A stretch of DNA of 64,000 bases, taken from NCBI GenBank assembly GCA_927797885.1, contig OV696605.1, positions 719,157-783,156 of the forward strand. The letters run 5' to 3'. This document shows positions 11,229 through 58,673 of the stretch, piece after piece. The notes beneath the pieces are model-generated. The model had not been told where the DNA came from. It did no database searches and saw only the letters and a program-made list of their open reading frames with translations. The DNA is from Gloeomargaritales cyanobacterium VI4D9. GTDB lineage: Bacteria; Cyanobacteriota; Cyanobacteriia; Gloeomargaritales; Gloeomargaritaceae. Made by a program: the position numbers and the translations under genes. Positions within the stretch are counted from its first letter, which is position 1. The number at the start of each line of letters is the position of its first letter.

Positions 11229-11354
11229 TATAGCTAAACACGCAAAGGTTGACATAGATATAGGTCGCAGGGCGTAGCCATGCACTGGTTCTCCATAGCT
11301 TGCGTGGCGCAGCCATGAATTTTTGAGGCGACAACCTAACCGTACTTAGCTATA
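11229..11354. mobile_element. MITE with TATAGCTAA termini (family N, copy 1)
   Basis: 126 bp from TATAGCTAAACACGCAAAGG to CCGTACTTAGCTATA. A second copy at 23734-23838 is 105 bp. The difference is a 21-22 bp small dispersed repeat inserted at 11295. The termini resemble the left end of the IS630-type element at 56610 (TATAGCTAAGCAGGCAAAGG), which is a likely source of transposase. Confidence 0.75.
11295..11316. repeat. Small dispersed repeat inserted in a MITE
   Basis: ATAGCTTGCGTGGCGCAGCC followed by AT, absent from the otherwise matching MITE at 23734-23838, where GGTTCTCC runs straight into AGAATTTTTGAGG. Confidence 0.65.
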
Positions 11355-12114: not shown

Positions 12115-13222
12115 CACAAGTGTTGAATCCTGCAATAAAACTTTACATATTTAGGCGTGGGACGACCCGATTGAGCCAATGGACAAAATTCCACTCCTGC
12201 CGTATTAAGATTTGTATATATCGGAACTTATCTGCCAATTTACTTCCGTACATCCGTGGAACTTTTAACAGTTGCAATATCAAGTAAACTATTAAAATTA
12301 CATAAATTTGAATGGTAATTCCATTCAAATTTTTACTCATCATTTTATCGAGCTTTAAGTTCATCTTTAGAAATTTCCATAGTACCTCTATCGCCCAGCG
12401 TTGTCTATAGGCTTCCCCTATCTCTTCATTACTCATTACATCCTCAGGAATATTGGTAGCTAAATAATAGTCTACTTTCTGTTGAACATTGCCAAAACAA
12501 ACTACTCTCGCCTTACCTCGTTCTGTGGTGATATGATAGTTTTCATCCCATTTCCAATTCGACTTAATACGGATAATAAAAAGGGCATCATTTTCGATAA
12601 ATTGTTCAAATACTTTGTGACTGCAAAACCCTCTATCCCCGACTGCGACTCCATTTTCCGGTAGCATTTTCACAATATCTTCACCAAAATTAATCTCATG
12701 TGCCTGTCCAGGACTAACAATTAAATGACCAGTAGATTTCGTATCTTGATTCAAAGTGGTTATTAACTTTACTTGGCGATAGCCTTGGAGCCAAAATAAC
12801 TTACTCATCAGCGGTATTACGGTAGCATCAAAAGGACATAAAACCAACCTCTTTTCAGGATGAGCTTCCTCAATATAATGCAATAATTTATGATAAAGAT
12901 GCATAAAAATTTGTGGGTCTCTTGTCTTGTTCGCCTTAGAAAACGTGGATAAGTCAACCTTAATGCCCGCATGATTTAATTGGTAAAATAAGTCCCGTAA
13001 ACTGTTGATTCCTTTGTCTAAAATGCCAGCAAACCAGATTGAACAAAATAAGCGAGAATTTAGAACTGGATAATCATTAGTTGGCAGGTCTTTGAGTAAA
13101 AATTTGACAATCCCGGGAAAAGAATTGAATTTCATAGTTGTTTCATGTTTTGGTTTATATGAATTAGAATACCATATTTTGACCCCTCTTTTTCTGCCTT
13201 TACCTACCTTTCAACACTTCTG
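12115..13222 (-). mobile_element. IS4-family insertion sequence, copy 2
   Basis: 1108 bp with the same termini as copy 1. Target duplication GCTTAAAAT at 12106-12114 and 13223-13231. The target is the central loop of attC-like site 2. Confidence 0.95.
12143..13135 (-). CDS. IS4-family transposase (copy 2)
   Basis: 330 residues, identical to copy 1 (D103, D167, E250, YREK). Confidence 0.96.
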   Translation of the reverse strand: MKFNSFPGIVKFLLKDLPTNDYPVLNSRLFCSIWFAGILDKGINSLRDLFYQLNHAGIKVDLSTFSKANKTRDPQIFMHLYHKLLHYIEEAHPEKRLVLCPFDATVIPLMSKLFWLQGYRQVKLITTLNQDTKSTGHLIVSPGQAHEINFGEDIVKMLPENGVAVGDRGFCSHKVFEQFIENDALFIIRIKSNWKWDENYHITTERGKARVVCFGNVQQKVDYYLATNIPEDVMSNEEIGEAYRQRWAIEVLWKFLKMNLKLDKMMSKNLNGITIQIYVILIVYLILQLLKVPRMYGSKLADKFRYIQILIRQEWNFVHWLNRVVPRLNM

Positions 13223-20128: not shown

Positions 20129-22020
20129 ACCCGACTCCGATCCCCAACAGTTCCCTAGAACACAAATGGGATGAATTCAAAAACCATTGCCGTTTGGTCA
20201 GTCCCGCCAATCGGGGTAAATACACCGTACTGGTGATTGGCACGGGTTTGGCTGGGGCATCGGCGGCGGCGACCCTGGGGGAACTGGGGTATAAAGTACT
20301 GGTGTTTTGCTTACAAGATACACCCCGGCGTGCCCATAGCATTGCGGCTCAAGGGGGGATCAATGCGGCTAAAAATTACCAGAATGACGGGGATAGTGTC
20401 TGGCGGTTGTTTTACGACACGATCAAGGGGGGGGATTTTCGGGCGCGGGAGGCGAATGTCTATCGTTTGGCGCAGGTCAGCACCCAGATTATTGACCATT
20501 GCGTGGCGCAGGGGGTGCCCTTTGCCCGGGAGTACGGGGGTTTGCTGGCGAATCGTTCGTTTGGGGGGGCACAGGTGTCCCGCACGTTTTACGCCCGGGG
20601 GCAGACGGGACAGCAATTATTATTAGGAGCTTATGGGGCATTGATGCGCCAGGTGCAACGGGGGACGGTGCAATTATTTCCCCAACGGGAGTTTTACGAT
20701 TTAGTAATTGTAGATGGGCGGGCGCAGGGCATCATTGTTCGCCATTTAATTACCGGGGAATTAGAACGCTATGGGGGTCAGGCGGTTATTTTAGCCAGCG
20801 GTGGTTATGGGAACATTTACTATTTATCTACGAACGCTAAAAGTGCCAATGCTTCAGCGGTCTGGCGTTGTCACAAACGGGGGGCACTGCTCGCTAATCC
20901 TAGTTTTGTGCAGATTCATCCCACCTGTATTCCGGTGTCGGGAACCGGGCAGTCCAAATTAACCTTGATGAGTGAAAGTTTACGCAATGATGGTCGCATT
21001 TGGGTCTCAAAAATCCCTGGTGATACCCGTGCCCCTAAAGACATTCCCCCTGAAGATCGGGATTATTTTTTAGAACGTCTCTATCCCAGCTTTGGCAATT
21101 TAGTACCTAGAGATATTGCGTCCCGGGCAGTGAAAAAGGTCTGCGACGAAGGCTATGGAGTAGGGCGGTCGGTATATTTAGATTTCCAGGAACGTTTGGC
21201 GCATAATCGCCCCGAAATCGAGCGCAAATATGGCAATTTATTCACCATGTACCAGCGGATTACCGGGGAAAATCCCTACGAAACGCCCATGCGAATTTAT
21301 CCAGCCGTGCATTATGTGATGGGGGGGCTGTGGGTGGATTATGGTTTGATGAGTACGATCCCCGGTTTATTTGTCCTCGGAGAAGCCAATTTTTCTGACC
21401 ACGGTGCCAATCGTTTGGGTGCGAGTGCATTGATGCAGGGTTTGGCAGATGGGTACTTTATTATTCCCTATACCTTGGGTAATTATTTGGCGGGGATCAA
21501 ACCCCAGGAAATTGATATTTTCCGGGAGGAATTTCAGCAGGCAAACCAACAAGCCCATGACCGGATTAACGCCCTCTTGAGCGTTGGTGGTTCCCGCACC
21601 CCCAGGGAGTTTCATCGCCAGTTAGGTGCCATTCTGTGGGATCAGGTGGGCATGAGCCGCTCGGAACCCGGGTTAAAAGACGCATTACAAAAGATTAACA
21701 ATTTACAGCAAGCGTTTTGGCGGGATGTGCGGGTGACGGGTTCGGCTCAGGGGTTGAATCAAGCCCTCGAGTATGCGGGACGGGTGGCGGATTACCTGGA
21801 ATTAGCCTCGGTGTTGACGTTGGATGCCCTAGCACGGCGGGAGTCCTGCGGTGCCCATTTCCGGGAGGAGTACCAAACCCCCGAGGGGGAGCCACTGCGG
21901 GATGATGAGCAGTTTGCCCATGTGGCGCTGTGGCAATGGCGAGCGGGAGAGGCACCAGTACGGAGCGAGGAACCCCTAAATTACCAAACCGTGCAACCTT
22001 CGGTGCGGAATTACCGTTAA
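20125..22020 (+). CDS. sdhA: Succinate dehydrogenase / fumarate reductase flavoprotein subunit
   Basis: 631 residues. The FAD-binding Rossmann motif is [20 protein letters not shown] near residues 36-55. [14 protein letters not shown] carries the His that usually binds FAD covalently. HPTCIP is near the substrate site, and the C-terminal [15 protein letters not shown] is typical of SdhA. It oxidises succinate to fumarate. Only the cytochrome subunit is adjacent; the iron-sulfur subunit sdhB is not in this cluster, which is common in cyanobacteria. Confidence 0.94.
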
Positions 22021-23545: not shown

Positions 23546-23733
23546 AAGGGGAACCTCTATTTATTTGAACCAACTAAAAATCTCATCGTGGGAGTACCCA
23601 TATTACCCAGAACCAAGGGCGAGGGGTGCCCCCCTGCGACCCCTGTTCCATTCTCATTTAGGATTGCTATATTTATTCAAAACATGAGAACGAAACACAA
23701 GAACAGCAGATTATTGCTCAGTATTTTTTGTAC
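23546..23733. repeat. Composite of repeat families B and A, left part
   Basis: Starts with a family B end (GGGGAACCTCTATTTATT), passes into a family A half ending ATTTAGGATTGCTATA at 23671, and continues AAAACATGAGAACGAAACAC. That last stretch is an inverted copy of 36960-37020. It is interrupted at 23734 by a nested MITE and resumes at 23839-23863. Confidence 0.6.
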
Positions 23734-23838
23734 TATAGCTAAACACGCAAAGGTTGACATAGATACGGGTCGCAGGGCGTAGCCACGCACTGGTTCTCCA
23801 GAATTTTTGAGGCGACAACCCAACCGTACTTAGCTATA
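23734..23838. mobile_element. MITE with TATAGCTAA termini (family N, copy 2), nested
   Basis: 105 bp from TATAGCTAAACACGCAAAGG to CCGTACTTAGCTATA, inserted into a repeat whose uninterrupted form is at 36940-36970. There the site reads (inverted) TTGTACTAAGATTACTAGG; here TTGTAC and AGATTACTAGG flank the element. The TA of the target is duplicated. The rest of the gene-free stretch to 24092 shows nothing recognisable. Confidence 0.8.
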
Positions 23839-24092
23839 AGATTACTAGGTTTTATAGATGTTCATAGATATATAGTCATTCCGTTTTAGAATACAACACT
23901 TTTTAGGTATTTGTAATCGCTCTATTCCCTTCTAGGACAGGGGTTGCAGGTAACGGCGAATGTCGCAAACTTGTTTGATTACTATATTTTATACAGTTTA
24001 CGCCATAGAACCAGGAGAGCCAGAAAATTACGGGTTGGAAGTCATCCCTACGCTTTAGTTCTGCAGGATTTCTTCTTGTTAATTGGGTAATG

Positions 24093-36939: not shown

Positions 36940-37126
36940 ATCTATAAAACCTAGTAATCTTAGTACAAAAAATACTGAGCAATAATCTGCTGTTCTTGTG
37001 TTTCGTTCTCATGTTTTGAATAAATATAGCAATCCTAAATGAGAATGGAACAGGGGGTCGCAGGGGCACCGCCCCCGTCCTTGGTTCTGAGGAATTTATG
37101 TTTGTTAATCAAATAGGATTGCTATA
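36940..37126. repeat. MITE-like repeat family A with an extended flank
   Basis: 37025-37126 is a full family A element (TATAGCAATCCTAAATGAG to AAATAGGATTGCTATA). The 85 bp to its left also recurs, inverted, at 23672-23863. This is the uninterrupted version of the repeat that carries a nested MITE at 23734. A family B end (GAGGTGCCCTTA) follows at 37127. Confidence 0.75.
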
Positions 37127-37135
37127 GAGGTGCCC

Positions 37136-37813: not shown

Positions 37814-38921
37814 CACAAGTGTTGAATCCTGCAATAAAACTTTACATATTTAGGCGTGGGACGACCCGATTGAGCCAATGGACAAAATTCCACTCCTGCC
37901 GTATTAAGATTTGTATATATCGGAACTTATCTGCCAATTTACTTCCGTACATCCGTGGAACTTTTAACAGTTGCAATATCAAGTAAACTATTAAAATTAC
38001 ATAAATTTGAATGGTAATTCCATTCAAATTTTTACTCATCATTTTATCGAGCTTTAAGTTCATCTTTAGAAATTTCCATAGTACCTCTATCGCCCAGCGT
38101 TGTCTATAGGCTTCCCCTATCTCTTCATTACTCATTACATCCTCAGGAATATTGGTAGCTAAATAATAGTCTACTTTCTGTTGAACATTGCCAAAACAAA
38201 CTACTCTCGCCTTACCTCGTTCTGTGGTGATATGATAGTTTTCATCCCATTTCCAATTCGACTTAATACGGATAATAAAAAGGGCATCATTTTCGATAAA
38301 TTGTTCAAATACTTTGTGACTGCAAAACCCTCTATCCCCGACTGCGACTCCATTTTCCGGTAGCATTTTCACAATATCTTCACCAAAATTAATCTCATGT
38401 GCCTGTCCAGGACTAACAATTAAATGACCAGTAGATTTCGTATCTTGATTCAAAGTGGTTATTAACTTTACTTGGCGATAGCCTTGGAGCCAAAATAACT
38501 TACTCATCAGCGGTATTACGGTAGCATCAAAAGGACATAAAACCAACCTCTTTTCAGGATGAGCTTCCTCAATATAATGCAATAATTTATGATAAAGATG
38601 CATAAAAATTTGTGGGTCTCTTGTCTTGTTCGCCTTAGAAAACGTGGATAAGTCAACCTTAATGCCCGCATGATTTAATTGGTAAAATAAGTCCCGTAAA
38701 CTGTTGATTCCTTTGTCTAAAATGCCAGCAAACCAGATTGAACAAAATAAGCGAGAATTTAGAACTGGATAATCATTAGTTGGCAGGTCTTTGAGTAAAA
38801 ATTTGACAATCCCGGGAAAAGAATTGAATTTCATAGTTGTTTCATGTTTTGGTTTATATGAATTAGAATACCATATTTTGACCCCTCTTTTTCTGCCTTT
38901 ACCTACCTTTCAACACTTCTG
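37814..38921 (-). mobile_element. IS4-family insertion sequence, copy 4
   Basis: 1108 bp. Target duplication GGCGGCGGG at 37805-37813 and 38922-38930, within the integrase remnant. The stretch 38931-39105 that follows holds no gene. Confidence 0.95.
37842..38834 (-). CDS. IS4-family transposase (copy 4)
   Basis: 330 residues, identical to the other copies. Confidence 0.96.
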   Translation of the reverse strand: MKFNSFPGIVKFLLKDLPTNDYPVLNSRLFCSIWFAGILDKGINSLRDLFYQLNHAGIKVDLSTFSKANKTRDPQIFMHLYHKLLHYIEEAHPEKRLVLCPFDATVIPLMSKLFWLQGYRQVKLITTLNQDTKSTGHLIVSPGQAHEINFGEDIVKMLPENGVAVGDRGFCSHKVFEQFIENDALFIIRIKSNWKWDENYHITTERGKARVVCFGNVQQKVDYYLATNIPEDVMSNEEIGEAYRQRWAIEVLWKFLKMNLKLDKMMSKNLNGITIQIYVILIVYLILQLLKVPRMYGSKLADKFRYIQILIRQEWNFVHWLNRVVPRLNM

Positions 38922-53857: not shown

Positions 53858-54960
53858 TGCCCAAATTGTTGATCGCCGCCAGTGGCACCGGTGGGCATCT
53901 CTTTCCCGCTTTAGCCGTCGCCCAGGCGTTACCTACCTGGCAGATCGAATGGTTGGGGGTGCCGGAGCGGTTGGAACAGCAACTGGTGCCGTCTGTCTAT
54001 CCTCTGCATCGGGTGCAGTTGTCCGGGTTGCCGGGGGGGCTGAATCGGCGCACCCTCAAGGTCTTGGCGGAATTGTGGACAGCCACCTGGCAGGTACGGC
54101 GGTTATTGCAATCCGGGGGTTTTGACCTGGTGTTTACCACCGGGGGGTACATTGCCGCTCCGGCGATTTTGGCCGCCCGTTCCCTGGGCAGACCCGTGGT
54201 TTTGCATGAATCGAATGCCCTCCCCGGCAAAGTCACCCGCTGGCTGGGGCGGCGGTGTACAGTGGTAGCCCTGGGATTTTCAGAAGCGCAGACCCATCTG
54301 CCCAAGCCCAAAACCCTTGTCGTCGGCACCCCAGTCCGTCCCGATTTCCTGGAAATTACTGCTCTTAAAGAAAATGTAGCAGTCATCCCCCGTGATGCGT
54401 TTGTCATACTCATTACCGGGGGGAGCCAGGGGGCAGTCAGTTTGAACCAACTGGTGCGTCCCTGTGTCCCGGACTGGGTGGCACGGGGCTGGTGGGTGGT
54501 GCATCAAACCGGCGACCAGGACCCGGACTACAGCAGGTACCAACATCCGCAATACATCGAACGGGCGTTTTTCCCAGATATGGCCGCCTGGATGGCCCGG
54601 GCGCAGGTGGTGGTGGCACGGGCGGGCGCAGGCACCTTAAGCGAATTAGCCCTGTTGGGGAAACCGGCGATTTTGATCCCCTACCCCTGGGCGGCGGACA
54701 ATCATCAACAGTACAATGCCGATATATTTGCCAAACAAGGAGCCGCAGTGGTTAAACGCCAATCAGCGTTAACTCCCACTGAATTAGATACCTTGGTCAC
54801 GGAACTGGCTAGCGACACACAACGGCTAACTGAGATAGGCAAAGCAATGGCGGCCTTGGCCGTACCGGACAGTGCCCAACGAATGGCCGAGGTGTTAATT
54901 TCACTACACGCTAAGCCCCAAAAAGACTTTAATCTAAGTAGCTATAGCAATCCTAAATAA
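53857..54960 (+). CDS. murG: UDP-GlcNAc:lipid I N-acetylglucosaminyltransferase
   Basis: 367 residues from the ATG at 53857 (MPKLLIAASGTGGHLFPALA). It adds GlcNAc to lipid I to make lipid II at the inner face of the membrane. Motifs are SGTGGHxFP (lipid side), TTGGYIAAP, HESNALPGKVTRWL, ITGGSQGA, and ARAGAGTLSELALLGKPAILIPYPWAADNHQ-type UDP-GlcNAc binding, split here for brevity. The last five codons (SYSNPK end) and the stop lie inside a family A repeat, so the natural C terminus has been replaced by repeat sequence. Confidence 0.95.
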   Translation: MPKLLIAASGTGGHLFPALAVAQALPTWQIEWLGVPERLEQQLVPSVYPLHRVQLSGLPGGLNRRTLKVLAELWTATWQVRRLLQSGGFDLVFTTGGYIAAPAILAARSLGRPVVLHESNALPGKVTRWLGRRCTVVALGFSEAQTHLPKPKTLVVGTPVRPDFLEITALKENVAVIPRDAFVILITGGSQGAVSLNQLVRPCVPDWVARGWWVVHQTGDQDPDYSRYQHPQYIERAFFPDMAAWMARAQVVVARAGAGTLSELALLGKPAILIPYPWAADNHQQYNADIFAKQGAAVVKRQSALTPTELDTLVTELASDTQRLTEIGKAMAALAVPDSAQRMAEVLISLHAKPQKDFNLSSYSNPK

Positions 54961-55045
54961 AAATGGAATAGGGGTTGCAGGGGCACCGCCCCCGCCCTTG
55001 GTTCTGGATAATATGGGTTGGCTCAGATAAATAGAGATGCCCGTT
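54943..55045. repeat. Family A/B repeat overlapping the murG stop
   Basis: Begins TATAGCAATCCTAAATAA, has the GCAGGGGCACCGCCCCCGCC core, then runs into a family B end (ATAAATAGAGATGCCC). It supplies the murG stop codon. Confidence 0.7.
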
Positions 55046-55082: not shown

Positions 55083-55454
55083 ATGGAACGTATTTTATTC
55101 ACACCGGTTACCAAGGAACGATTTGGTTCCCCCCCCCAAACCCTGGAAATTCCCCTGACCCGGTTGGATACGGCGACGGCGGAAACCTTTAAGCAGCAGT
55201 GCTTGGACTTGGTGGCGGGTCAAGCGCAGATGGTGGGGATCAACCTGAGTACGGTGGATTTCATGGACAGCAAGGGCTTGGGGGCACTGGTGAGTTGCAG
55301 TAAACAGATTCAAGCCCTGGGCGGTAAAACCTTTTTGGTGGCTCCCCAACCGCAGATTTTGGTACTTCTGGAAACTGTGGCAATCCACCGTTTTATTCCC
55401 ATCTACACTAAGCGGGAGCATTTTGAGCAGGGTTTGGAGCCGGATGCGTTTTAG
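55083..55454 (+). CDS. STAS-domain protein (anti-sigma factor antagonist type)
   Basis: 123 residues from the ATG at 55083; an in-frame TTG at 55053 is less likely. It is a single STAS domain with the conserved loop VDFMDSKGLGALVSCSKQIQ, where Asp-Ser is the usual phosphorylation region of SpoIIAA/RsbV proteins. The second Ser of the classical DSSG is Lys here. In cyanobacteria such proteins work with PP2C phosphatases and switch kinases, none of which is nearby. Confidence 0.85.
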   Translation: MERILFTPVTKERFGSPPQTLEIPLTRLDTATAETFKQQCLDLVAGQAQMVGINLSTVDFMDSKGLGALVSCSKQIQALGGKTFLVAPQPQILVLLETVAIHRFIPIYTKREHFEQGLEPDAF

Positions 55455-55565
55455 GGCATCTCTAAAAATAGTTCGCAGGGGCACCGCCCCCGTCTATGGT
55501 TCTCCGTAATATCGGCATTTGAGTGAAATAATCTTCCAGTGGCGGCAATAAATAGAGGTGTCCTT
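55455..55565. repeat. Repeat family B copy
   Basis: About 110 bp between the inverted ends AGGGCATCTCTA and TAGAGGTGTCCTTT, with the core CGCAGGGGCACCGCCCCCGT. It starts directly at the stop codon of the STAS gene. Confidence 0.6.
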
Positions 55566-55582: not shown

Positions 55583-56611
55583 TACAGTCTTTTCCTTTAT
55601 TATGGGGTACAGTAGCAACATTTGGTAAACCAATTTGCAAAAGAAGAAGGATTAATCAATAACAAAGATGCTTGGATAATTGACTGTATATCCTTTACTG
55701 GTGAATCATGAAACTGTCGAATAAAATTCTTTAGAACTGACCACATCATTTCCATTGGATTAAATTCTGGTGAATACACAGGGAGATACAATAGACGAGC
55801 ACCGGTCTGGCTAATCATCTGTTGTACTTCTATGGCTTTATGACTATTCAAGTTGTCCATAATTACCACCTTCTTCTCATTTAATTTTGGGCATAATTCT
55901 GTTTTCACAAATTCTAAAAAATCCTGTTTCTTCATGGAGCCTTTGATGATTTTATGACAAACAACGCCCTCCACAGATATAGCACCGATTAACGTGTATT
56001 TCTGACCCTTGTTTTTCTGGCGATAACTATAAACTTTTTTCCCTTGTAAACTCCATGCAACTTTCCTCTCCATGCCCTCCCAGGTTGCTGTTTCATCTAC
56101 GGCAACTATATCTTCGGCTGGAACGCTTCCAATCTTATGCCAGTATCCTAAGCGTTCTGCACAACTTCACTCTTGGCTTTTTCACTGCGGAATGTCTTTT
56201 TTTTTAGAGTGATTTTATGCTTTTTCAAGAAAGAATACAATGTGCTAATACTCACTTCCTAGCCTTTCTCCGATTATCTCAACATATTGCCACAAACACT
56301 TATCTGGATACTCTTCAACAATGGCTAAAATCTCAACTTGATTTTGTTCTAAAATTCCAACTCGTTTTGTCCCTACTTTTTTAGGTGTTAAGTCTTGAGT
56401 CTGTTTATACTGTTGTACCAGGCGATGTACTGTCCTTTTAGTTACCAATGGCTTCGCCACGCTTCGCTATAAACCGCTTAGCTACTTCCCGGATTGTTCT
56501 CCCGCTTGGTATGCAACTACAATTCTTTGCCGTAAATCTAAGGAATGTGTAGGCATCTCTTTGTCCTCTCATTTCTATGGTTTGTATCCCATAATAGCAT
56601 AAAAGACTGTA
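55583..56611 (-). pseudogene. IS630-family element 1, inactivated
   Basis: 1029 bp with termini TACAGTCTTTT...TTATGGGGTAC and GTATCCCATAATAG...AAAAGACTGTA. Minus-strand fragments: an N-terminal helix-turn-helix start (MPTHSLDLRQRIVVAYQAGE) near 56554, a second part at 56245-56460 (VTKRTVHRLVQQYKQT) and the DDE_3 domain at 55600-56130. The DDE part has Asp in VAVDETATWEG, IMDNLNSHKA and YSPEFNPMEMMW. At least two frame breaks and an inserted small repeat at 56450 separate them. Confidence 0.85.
56450..56470. repeat. Small dispersed repeat inserted in an IS630 transposase gene
   Basis: GGCTTCGCCACGCTTCGCTA followed by T. It interrupts the frame between REVAKRF and VTKRTVHR. Removing about 22 bp restores the expected protein order. 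Confidence 0.65.
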
Positions 56612-57537
56612 TAGCTAAGCAGGCAAAGGTTGGCATATAGAGCAGATGACTGAATCTATAAGGTCATGAAGATTTTGGGTTGTAGATGTCATGGTTTTTC
56701 TAACTCTTTGCTTGATGCCATTGATGCTCGGGAGAGTATTTCGGTAGATATATCAATTCGCACCCAGCGGCTTCCACAACCTTCCTAACCAGTTGGCAAC
56801 GATGAAAACTTGCATTATCTAAAACGATTTTCTTCCCTGCTCCAATTGTTGGCAACAACATCTCTGTTAACCAGGTAATCAATACTTGCAAATTACAACT
56901 ACCAATCCCAGTAAATGGTGCAACCATTTTCCCTAAATGATAACCACTCATCATGCTTATTCTCTCTCTCTTTTTGCCAGGTCATTGACCATATATTCTT
57001 TGTCCTTTTAGCCCCCAACCATATTCATAAATATCTCGATTATCCATCCCAGACTGGTCAATATAGACTAAATCTTCATTCTTTTCCTCTTGCAGCATCT
57101 TGATAAATTGCTGTCGCTCTTCTTCGTTTTGTTCTTCATAAGAGTATGTCTTTTTTTTTACGGGTAAAGTTGATTTTTTTAAGGGCTTGACCAACGGTTG
57201 TATGACTTACACCGAGGATGACTCCCATTTCTTTTTGCGTCAACCCTGGATTTGCTTCTACAAATTGGCGAAATCCCTCCCAATCAGTGATCTTAGCACT
57301 ATGACCCTTTTGATAGTTCTGTTTCGGGCGATAATCACCAGTTTGTGACCACATTTTTAACCATCTTTGTACGGTTCTGATGCTAATACCAAATCACTCA
57401 CTAACCTCAACTAGTTTTGCCCCATTTAAGACTGCTTCGACTGCTTTTTGACGCAAATCGTAACTGTATGGTCTTGCCATCGCTTTTCTCCTAAACATCT
57501 ATTCTATAATAGGATGACCTTACCCTGCTTGACTATA
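56610..57537 (-). pseudogene. IS630-family element 2, inactivated
   Basis: 928 bp, abutting element 1 and sharing a TA. Termini are TATAGCTAAGCAGGCAAAGG and (inverted) TATAGTCAAGCAGGGTAAGG. Minus-strand fragments: MARPYSYDLRQKAVEAVLNG with a stop soon after, the HTH part at 57136-57354 (TQKEMGVILGVSHTTVGQAL), ENLVYIDQSGMD-like sequence (here EDLVYIDQSGMDNRDIYEYG) at 56982-57194, and VLDNASFHR with LIYLPKYSPEH at 56700-56954. The C-terminal end after YSPEH is missing. Confidence 0.85.
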
Positions 57538-57565: not shown

Positions 57566-58673
57566 CACAAGTGTTGAATCCTGCAATAAAACTTTACATA
57601 TTTAGGCGTGGGACGACCCGATTGAGCCAATGGACAAAATTCCACTCCTGCCGTATTAAGATTTGTATATATCGGAACTTATCTGCCAATTTACTTCCGT
57701 ACATCCGTGGAACTTTTAACAGTTGCAATATCAAGTAAACTATTAAAATTACATAAATTTGAATGGTAATTCCATTCAAATTTTTACTCATCATTTTATC
57801 GAGCTTTAAGTTCATCTTTAGAAATTTCCATAGTACCTCTATCGCCCAGCGTTGTCTATAGGCTTCCCCTATCTCTTCATTACTCATTACATCCTCAGGA
57901 ATATTGGTAGCTAAATAATAGTCTACTTTCTGTTGAACATTGCCAAAACAAACTACTCTCGCCTTACCTCGTTCTGTGGTGATATGATAGTTTTCATCCC
58001 ATTTCCAATTCGACTTAATACGGATAATAAAAAGGGCATCATTTTCGATAAATTGTTCAAATACTTTGTGACTGCAAAACCCTCTATCCCCGACTGCGAC
58101 TCCATTTTCCGGTAGCATTTTCACAATATCTTCACCAAAATTAATCTCATGTGCCTGTCCAGGACTAACAATTAAATGACCAGTAGATTTCGTATCTTGA
58201 TTCAAAGTGGTTATTAACTTTACTTGGCGATAGCCTTGGAGCCAAAATAACTTACTCATCAGCGGTATTACGGTAGCATCAAAAGGACATAAAACCAACC
58301 TCTTTTCAGGATGAGCTTCCTCAATATAATGCAATAATTTATGATAAAGATGCATAAAAATTTGTGGGTCTCTTGTCTTGTTCGCCTTAGAAAACGTGGA
58401 TAAGTCAACCTTAATGCCCGCATGATTTAATTGGTAAAATAAGTCCCGTAAACTGTTGATTCCTTTGTCTAAAATGCCAGCAAACCAGATTGAACAAAAT
58501 AAGCGAGAATTTAGAACTGGATAATCATTAGTTGGCAGGTCTTTGAGTAAAAATTTGACAATCCCGGGAAAAGAATTGAATTTCATAGTTGTTTCATGTT
58601 TTGGTTTATATGAATTAGAATACCATATTTTGACCCCTCTTTTTCTGCCTTTACCTACCTTTCAACACTTCTG
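57566..58673 (-). mobile_element. IS4-family insertion sequence, copy 5
   Basis: 1108 bp. Target duplication GATTGTAAG at 57557-57565 and 58674-58682, just outside the second IS630 relic. Confidence 0.95.
57594..58586 (-). CDS. IS4-family transposase (copy 5)
   Basis: 330 residues, identical to the other copies. Confidence 0.96.
   Translation of the reverse strand: MKFNSFPGIVKFLLKDLPTNDYPVLNSRLFCSIWFAGILDKGINSLRDLFYQLNHAGIKVDLSTFSKANKTRDPQIFMHLYHKLLHYIEEAHPEKRLVLCPFDATVIPLMSKLFWLQGYRQVKLITTLNQDTKSTGHLIVSPGQAHEINFGEDIVKMLPENGVAVGDRGFCSHKVFEQFIENDALFIIRIKSNWKWDENYHITTERGKARVVCFGNVQQKVDYYLATNIPEDVMSNEEIGEAYRQRWAIEVLWKFLKMNLKLDKMMSKNLNGITIQIYVILIVYLILQLLKVPRMYGSKLADKFRYIQILIRQEWNFVHWLNRVVPRLNM

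Follow-up and report, generated by a model that had tools for sequence, protein, structure and literature searches.

MITEs are usually read as the decayed offspring of one IS, and a MITE family is accordingly expected to stop once its transposase is lost. An example of a prokaryotic type II MITE is Nezha of cyanobacteria, a group of organisms that also carries small dispersed repeats (SDR). The definition in PMC10969869 describes prokaryotic type II MITEs as short and non-coding, with terminal inverted repeats and a target duplication. Among the IS630-type elements, ISY100 (947 bp, 24-bp imperfect ends, 282 aa) is described as inserting almost only at TA and duplicating the TA, with its transposase being sufficient (PMC2170065). 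In corals, the ends of all CMITEs retain one piggyBac motif, CCYT (PMC2872659). These coral elements are the nearest precedent found for MITEs that share an interior (PMC2872659), and a literature search on titles and abstract openings, with most subscription journals outside its coverage, revealed no prokaryotic chimeric, hybrid or mosaic MITEs or shared internal regions among the papers listed.

The element described here, element A, resembles the prokaryotic type II MITEs of that definition in being short and non-coding and in having terminal inverted repeats and a target duplication (PMC10969869). Unlike ISY100, it contains no gene, and it has only its ends in common with an IS of its own genome, IS D. 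The likeness to Nezha is one of description only.

A nested insertion in the end of an IS

The window, meaning the whole stretch of 64,000 nucleotides that was analysed, lies within the single-contig genome (3,162,419 bp) of Gloeomargaritales cyanobacterium VI4D9 and has a GC content of 51.4%. The features around the insertion and its empty counterpart are as follows.

23548-23671, minus strand: hybrid MITE in which the shared core separates a C-type end from an IS B-like end (GGGGAACCTCTA, a variant of GGGCACCTCTA)
23670-23735, plus strand: left piece of the host repeat, from the transposase-downstream IS B end
23734-23735, plus strand: left TA copy (a single TA in the empty paralogue)
23736-23836, plus strand: element A, a 101-bp MITE (TAGCTAA...TTAGCTA), defined from the sequence and from copies in its own genome
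23837-23838, plus strand: right TA copy (a single TA in the empty paralogue)
23839-23859, plus strand: host repeat, right piece, truncated after TATAGAT
36940-37026, minus strand: empty paralogue of the host repeat, with its single TA at 36961-36962
37025-37126, minus strand: C-type MITE with TAGCAATCC ends, at the TA near the IS B terminus (the coordinates cover both TA copies)

Positions 23734-23838 read TA-TAGCTAA...TTAGCTA-TA. When the flanks of the insertion are joined (70 bp, TA and 24 bp) and aligned base by base with 37032-36937 on the minus strand, 95 of 96 positions are identical and the match is contiguous through a single TA, giving a net insertion of 103 bp. The bases that flank the insert agree between both loci, and the nested insertion at 23736 is thereby confirmed. 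The original prediction of a MITE-like element inserted at TA, with that TA duplicated, is borne out by the two TA copies at the insert and the one in the paralogue. Its size of 105 bp holds for the span with both TA copies, whereas the element proper is 101 bp long. The positions 23672-23863 and 36940-37024, proposed to be interrupted and uninterrupted versions of one repeat, do belong to the same repeat, although on the right side they are letter-identical only as far as 23859. The "empty site preserved elsewhere" is a copy of the repeat without A and with a single TA, but a paralogous one rather than the same locus before insertion.

Relatives of the same genus were also searched at this locus. 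In the closest such genome examined, whose neighbouring gene is 94% identical, the 3.6 kb beyond that gene contain neither A nor a further host repeat, the only match being one 71-bp piece resembling half of a C-type MITE. An orthologous empty site was looked for in three same-genus genomes, in which the intergenic DNA gave no match.

The host repeat itself, taken at first for a second MITE, is instead a portion of IS B, from its end downstream of the transposase. This IS is 1236-1243 bp in length, encodes a 343-aa transposase matching DDE_Tnp_1 and DUF772, and is flanked by a 4-bp target duplication in all five full copies in the DNA examined; it is a candidate member of the IS5 family. Uninterrupted copies of the host repeat were found in 21 distinct sequence contexts in the DNA examined. 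Another IS B copy has a second A insertion, oppositely oriented, at this same TA (L015/L066), and the joined flanks of this insertion match an empty copy at 142 of 142 positions. An insertion hotspot at this shared TA is not claimed, as the first 110 bp of the IS B end contain 11 TAs. Beyond the C-type MITE at 37025-37126, the IS B end resumes as TAGAGGTGCCC at 37125-37135. The loci 23548-23671 and 37025-37126 carry different elements, which would explain why the matching between the host-repeat loci ends leftward.

The element A family

Searching the own genome with element A yielded at least 53 matches at E<=1, at least 20 of which extend over 95 or more of the 107 query bases; both counts are lower bounds, 40 of 62 first-look candidates having been scored. 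A related form, A2, accounts for 12 further matches over bases 1-62 only, 10 of which were obtained as loci. Ends were set for 29 copies, comprising 19 of A and 10 of the 12 A2 matches; locus L022, whose right end is lost beside C-type sequence, was left out. TA flanks both sides of all 29 copies, and the ends and the TA target as first proposed hold.

For 12 of the 29 copies there is a paralogue spanning the joined flanks, that is, a match reaching at least about 20 bases to either side of the join within the DNA examined, as opposed to the whole genome. Nine of these show one contiguous TA (L006, L007, L009, L015, L016, L018, L021, L027 and L034, the empty paralogues of L027 being located in G002), and the other three (L020, L025 and L028) read TG, CA or GA in its place. 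The L006 copy of A lies within DNA that is about 92% identical to a 330-aa transposase-like gene of the window, identical frames of which recur at 12143-13135, 37842-38834 and 57594-58586. Among 49 pooled TA sites (29 from the own genome and 20 from G001), C is the commonest base before TA (21/49) and G after it (22/49), with T at -3 in 24 and A at +3 in 27, a symmetrical leaning in these plain counts.

A recurrence of the family had been placed at 11229, and a copy is indeed found there, in a longer form with a 22-bp extra segment.

11229-11354, plus strand: element A in its 126-bp form; the 22-bp cassette occupies 11296-11317

The cassette pattern, allowing up to three substitutions, occurs once in the window, within this MITE. 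An optional segment of about 22 bp occupies an equivalent position in A (105 or 126 bp), A2 and F elements (window 11296-11317; L025, L029), and by description it can be likened to the small dispersed repeats (compare PMC2884548).

In combination, element A is 101 bp long, non-coding, bounded by terminal inverted repeats and present in many copies, and it has a target-site duplication together with an empty site, all of which are marks of a type II MITE. It has no match in the plasmids or phages searched, and genome contigs searched with A and with the D transposase yielded no usable match, the own and very near genomes possibly lying outside that set. Between window positions 22000 and 38000, Rfam at gathering cut-offs identified a single tRNA and nothing else. 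Compared with shuffled sequences, RNA folding of A is mildly more stable (z of -1.2 and -2.3 for the two strands; -2.5 for the 126-bp form), and that of the window C element at 37024-37126 is strongly so (z of -4.1 and -5.4); no role as RNA is proposed.

IS D as the probable driver

A pattern search with TAGCTAANNACGC, permitting one mismatch, also recovered TAGCTAAGCAGGC ends, which belong to the IS630-type IS D. Five near full-length copies of 926-947 bp are present, one of them within the window.

56610-57537, minus strand: decayed copy of the IS630-type IS D, the probable driver, with ends TATAGTCAAGCAGG / TATAGCTAAGCAGG

The ends read TATAG...CTATA in the four copies, of the five, whose ends were read. 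The copy at 3131275-3132221 is intact: its frame is open over 300 aa, and its transposase matches DDE_3 (4.1e-33) and HTH_Tnp_IS630 (4.6e-13). By description, IS D can be likened to ISY100 and the IS630/Tc1-mariner group in its TA at the edges, its length, its imperfect ends and, in the intact copy, its 300-aa DDE_3 transposase (compare the ISY100 account in PMC2170065). The frames of the copies L086, L088 and L089 differ: one is an open 300-aa frame, and those of L086 and L088 shift frame just past KKK, where a run of A occurs in the window copy (near 57151-57160). These differences may reflect either decay or frameshifting.

Between the left end of A and the transposase-downstream end of IS D, 26 of 30 positions agree, a score that 0 of 5000 shuffles reached (first five bases excluded). 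The right end of A agrees at 19 of 30 positions both with the upstream end (25/5000 shuffles as good) and with the downstream end (5/5000). When A is aligned with the whole of IS D, the left 28 bp align (E 5e-7) and the interior yields 7-bp matches only; the likeness of A to the autonomous IS D is limited to the ends, a further mark of a type II MITE. The one other IS630-type end pair compared with A, in which one of the two ends was set a base off, gave no match, and among the IS ends compared those of IS D appear closest to A.

Element A is therefore best explained, with high confidence, as a type II MITE that the transposase of IS D (IS630/Tc1-mariner-type) mobilises in trans and inserts at TA. 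This explanation builds on the ends, the TA pair, the empty paralogues, the intact IS D transposase gene and the end-limited likeness to IS D, each of which is observed directly. The mechanism is assumed from the behaviour of ISY100 as given in PMC2170065. The IS D transposase would recognise the imperfect terminal repeats of A, which would then move into a TA dinucleotide, presumably by cut-and-paste, and the TA would be duplicated. At 23736, A landed in the truncated end of an unrelated IS B, beside an older MITE insertion in the same IS end.

Distribution in relatives and competing explanations

The family search covered eight genomes, the own one included. Matches to A at E<=0.001 are found in six of the eight, and full-length copies only in G000, G001 and G002. 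In G001, where 105 pattern matches to A-type ends were counted, 17 of 20 copies of A relatives (L205-L224, 106 bp) are identical, the 20 having been picked from a near-equal-scoring group among 43 matches; this identity suggests a recent burst of that subgroup. The best match to the D transposase in G001 is 36% identical, and only three DDE_3 matches were found in the part of that genome examined; some DNA beside one D-like end lies outside that part, and D is not claimed to be absent. D relatives are found without full-length A in G003, G004 and G007, and G005 has neither a D relative nor a full-length A.

This uneven distribution of D and A weakens a strict pairing of the two. Alternatively, A may have been moved by another transposase, such as that of a different IS630-type IS now lost or unsampled, with D sharing only the ancestry of its ends. 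The near-identical A copies in a genome with no close D match found, and the D relatives in three genomes without full-length A, are consistent with such a driver, as is the weak match of the right end of A to D. That weak match also counts against D as the driver, together with the three of 12 spanning paralogues that lack TA. Another transposase is nevertheless considered unlikely, given that the ends of D are the closest among the IS ends compared (a single other IS630-type pair, with one end a base off), that one copy of IS D has an intact gene, and that G001 was examined only in part.

Movement by the IS D transposase, the preferred explanation, also has to be set against two accounts of the locus in which A did not insert as proposed. 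If A were ancestral in the host repeat, the copy at 36940 would be a product of precise excision, and this closest paralogue is indeed one without A. However, the uninterrupted copies in 21 contexts indicate that the empty form is the ancestral state of the host repeat, and the opposite orientations at one TA require two insertions, making excision very improbable. The presence of the A interior in other repeat families would fit a repeat of the REP or SDR kind, palindromic and passive, that recombination rather than transposition had spread; against the constant ends, the TA pair in every copy with ends set, the exact empty paralogues and the ends held in common with an IS, this account is scarcely credible.

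Interiors shared across unrelated ends

The nested insertion is itself ordinary IS630-type MITE biology. What goes beyond ordinary nesting is the sharing of an interior across unrelated ends, to which two further elements of the window contribute.

54943-55042, plus strand: second C/F hybrid MITE
55454-55563, plus strand: F-type MITE with the same core, IS B-type ends and the 4-bp target duplication TTTA

The core, TCGCAGGGGCACCGCCCCC, has 337 occurrences at up to two mismatches, compared with none for the reversed control. Seven window cores were identified by similarity search, of which three have two C ends, one has two F ends, two are C/F hybrids (23602 and 54971), and one (9582) has a single F-type end. 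With L274, the C/F hybrids total three, and in these the switch from C-type to F-type sequence occurs at the core. Of 69 exact cores retrieved from among the matches listed, 51 have C ends on both sides, two have F ends on both sides, one combines a C with an F end, and in 15 at least one side has no recognised end. When the matching was loosened in the own-genome DNA examined, in which earlier searches had favoured C, 118 cores were obtained (78 C/C, four F/F, two C/F and 33 with an unrecognised end), the single core scored as C/A probably being a C end loosely read.

Seven F elements with IS B-type ends were found in the DNA examined, one of them in G001. On account of these ends and of the matching 4-bp flanks in five of the seven, the F elements as a group are products of a different transposition system from that of A. 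Elements of the TAGCAATCC-ended C family are very numerous, with 66 distinct intact copies in the DNA examined, and carry other optional segments of about 20 bp. No driver of the C family was found among 12 DDE_3 loci scanned, of which four have C ends without evidence that these bound an IS; the C ends have a slight likeness to another IS630-type end (at best, 66/5000 shuffles as good).

Interiors alone were compared, each comparison against 1000 shuffles. None of the shuffles was as good for the G001 form of A with C (score 47) or with F (score 35), for C with F (score 52), or for the window A with the G001 form (score 43). The window A itself is weakly similar to C (4/1000 shuffles as good) and compares with F at 28/1000, and the values for A2 are 77/1000 with C and 757/1000 with F. 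The 126-bp form of A matches the F element L029, one of the two F elements of the seven without a matching 4-bp flank, through core and cassette (52 identical of 64 aligned columns, 0/1000). The link between the interiors of A, C and F rests on the G001 form of A, along with this match of the 126-bp form to L029. Judging from these sequence comparisons, the A interior, consisting of the core and the 22-bp cassette, occurs also within MITEs with IS5-type ends, and the TAGCAATCC-ended family has the core too.

Decay of a single IS does not account for one interior being joined to unrelated ends that come with different target duplications. It appears that interiors and ends have recombined with each other, with recombination within the core as the likely source of the shared interior; alternatively, the interior may have been captured independently or have been under selection. 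Compared with the coral CMITEs, the interior here is common to IS630-type ends (TA) and IS B-type ends (4-bp duplication), and is found in a prokaryote. The ends read TATAGCTAA, TATAGCAATCC or GGGCACCTCTA rather than CCYT, piggyBac-type ends being absent. The elements work like the coral CMITEs without being members of the CMITE group (PMC2872659).

Significance of a proposed separability of interiors and ends

We propose, as a hypothesis given about an even chance of being correct, that MITE interiors and ends are separable modules in this genus. One interior, made up of the core and optional cassettes, would be combined with the ends of at least two unrelated systems (IS630-type with TA, and IS B/IS5-type with 4 bp) and with a third, abundant end type through recombination inside the core, the hybrids with mismatched ends being intermediates. 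The interior could thereby outlive the loss of any one transposase. If interiors can change ends in this way, a non-autonomous element can switch drivers, and end switching would be directly testable in genomes of the genus that have intact IS copies together with near-identical MITE copies and hybrids.
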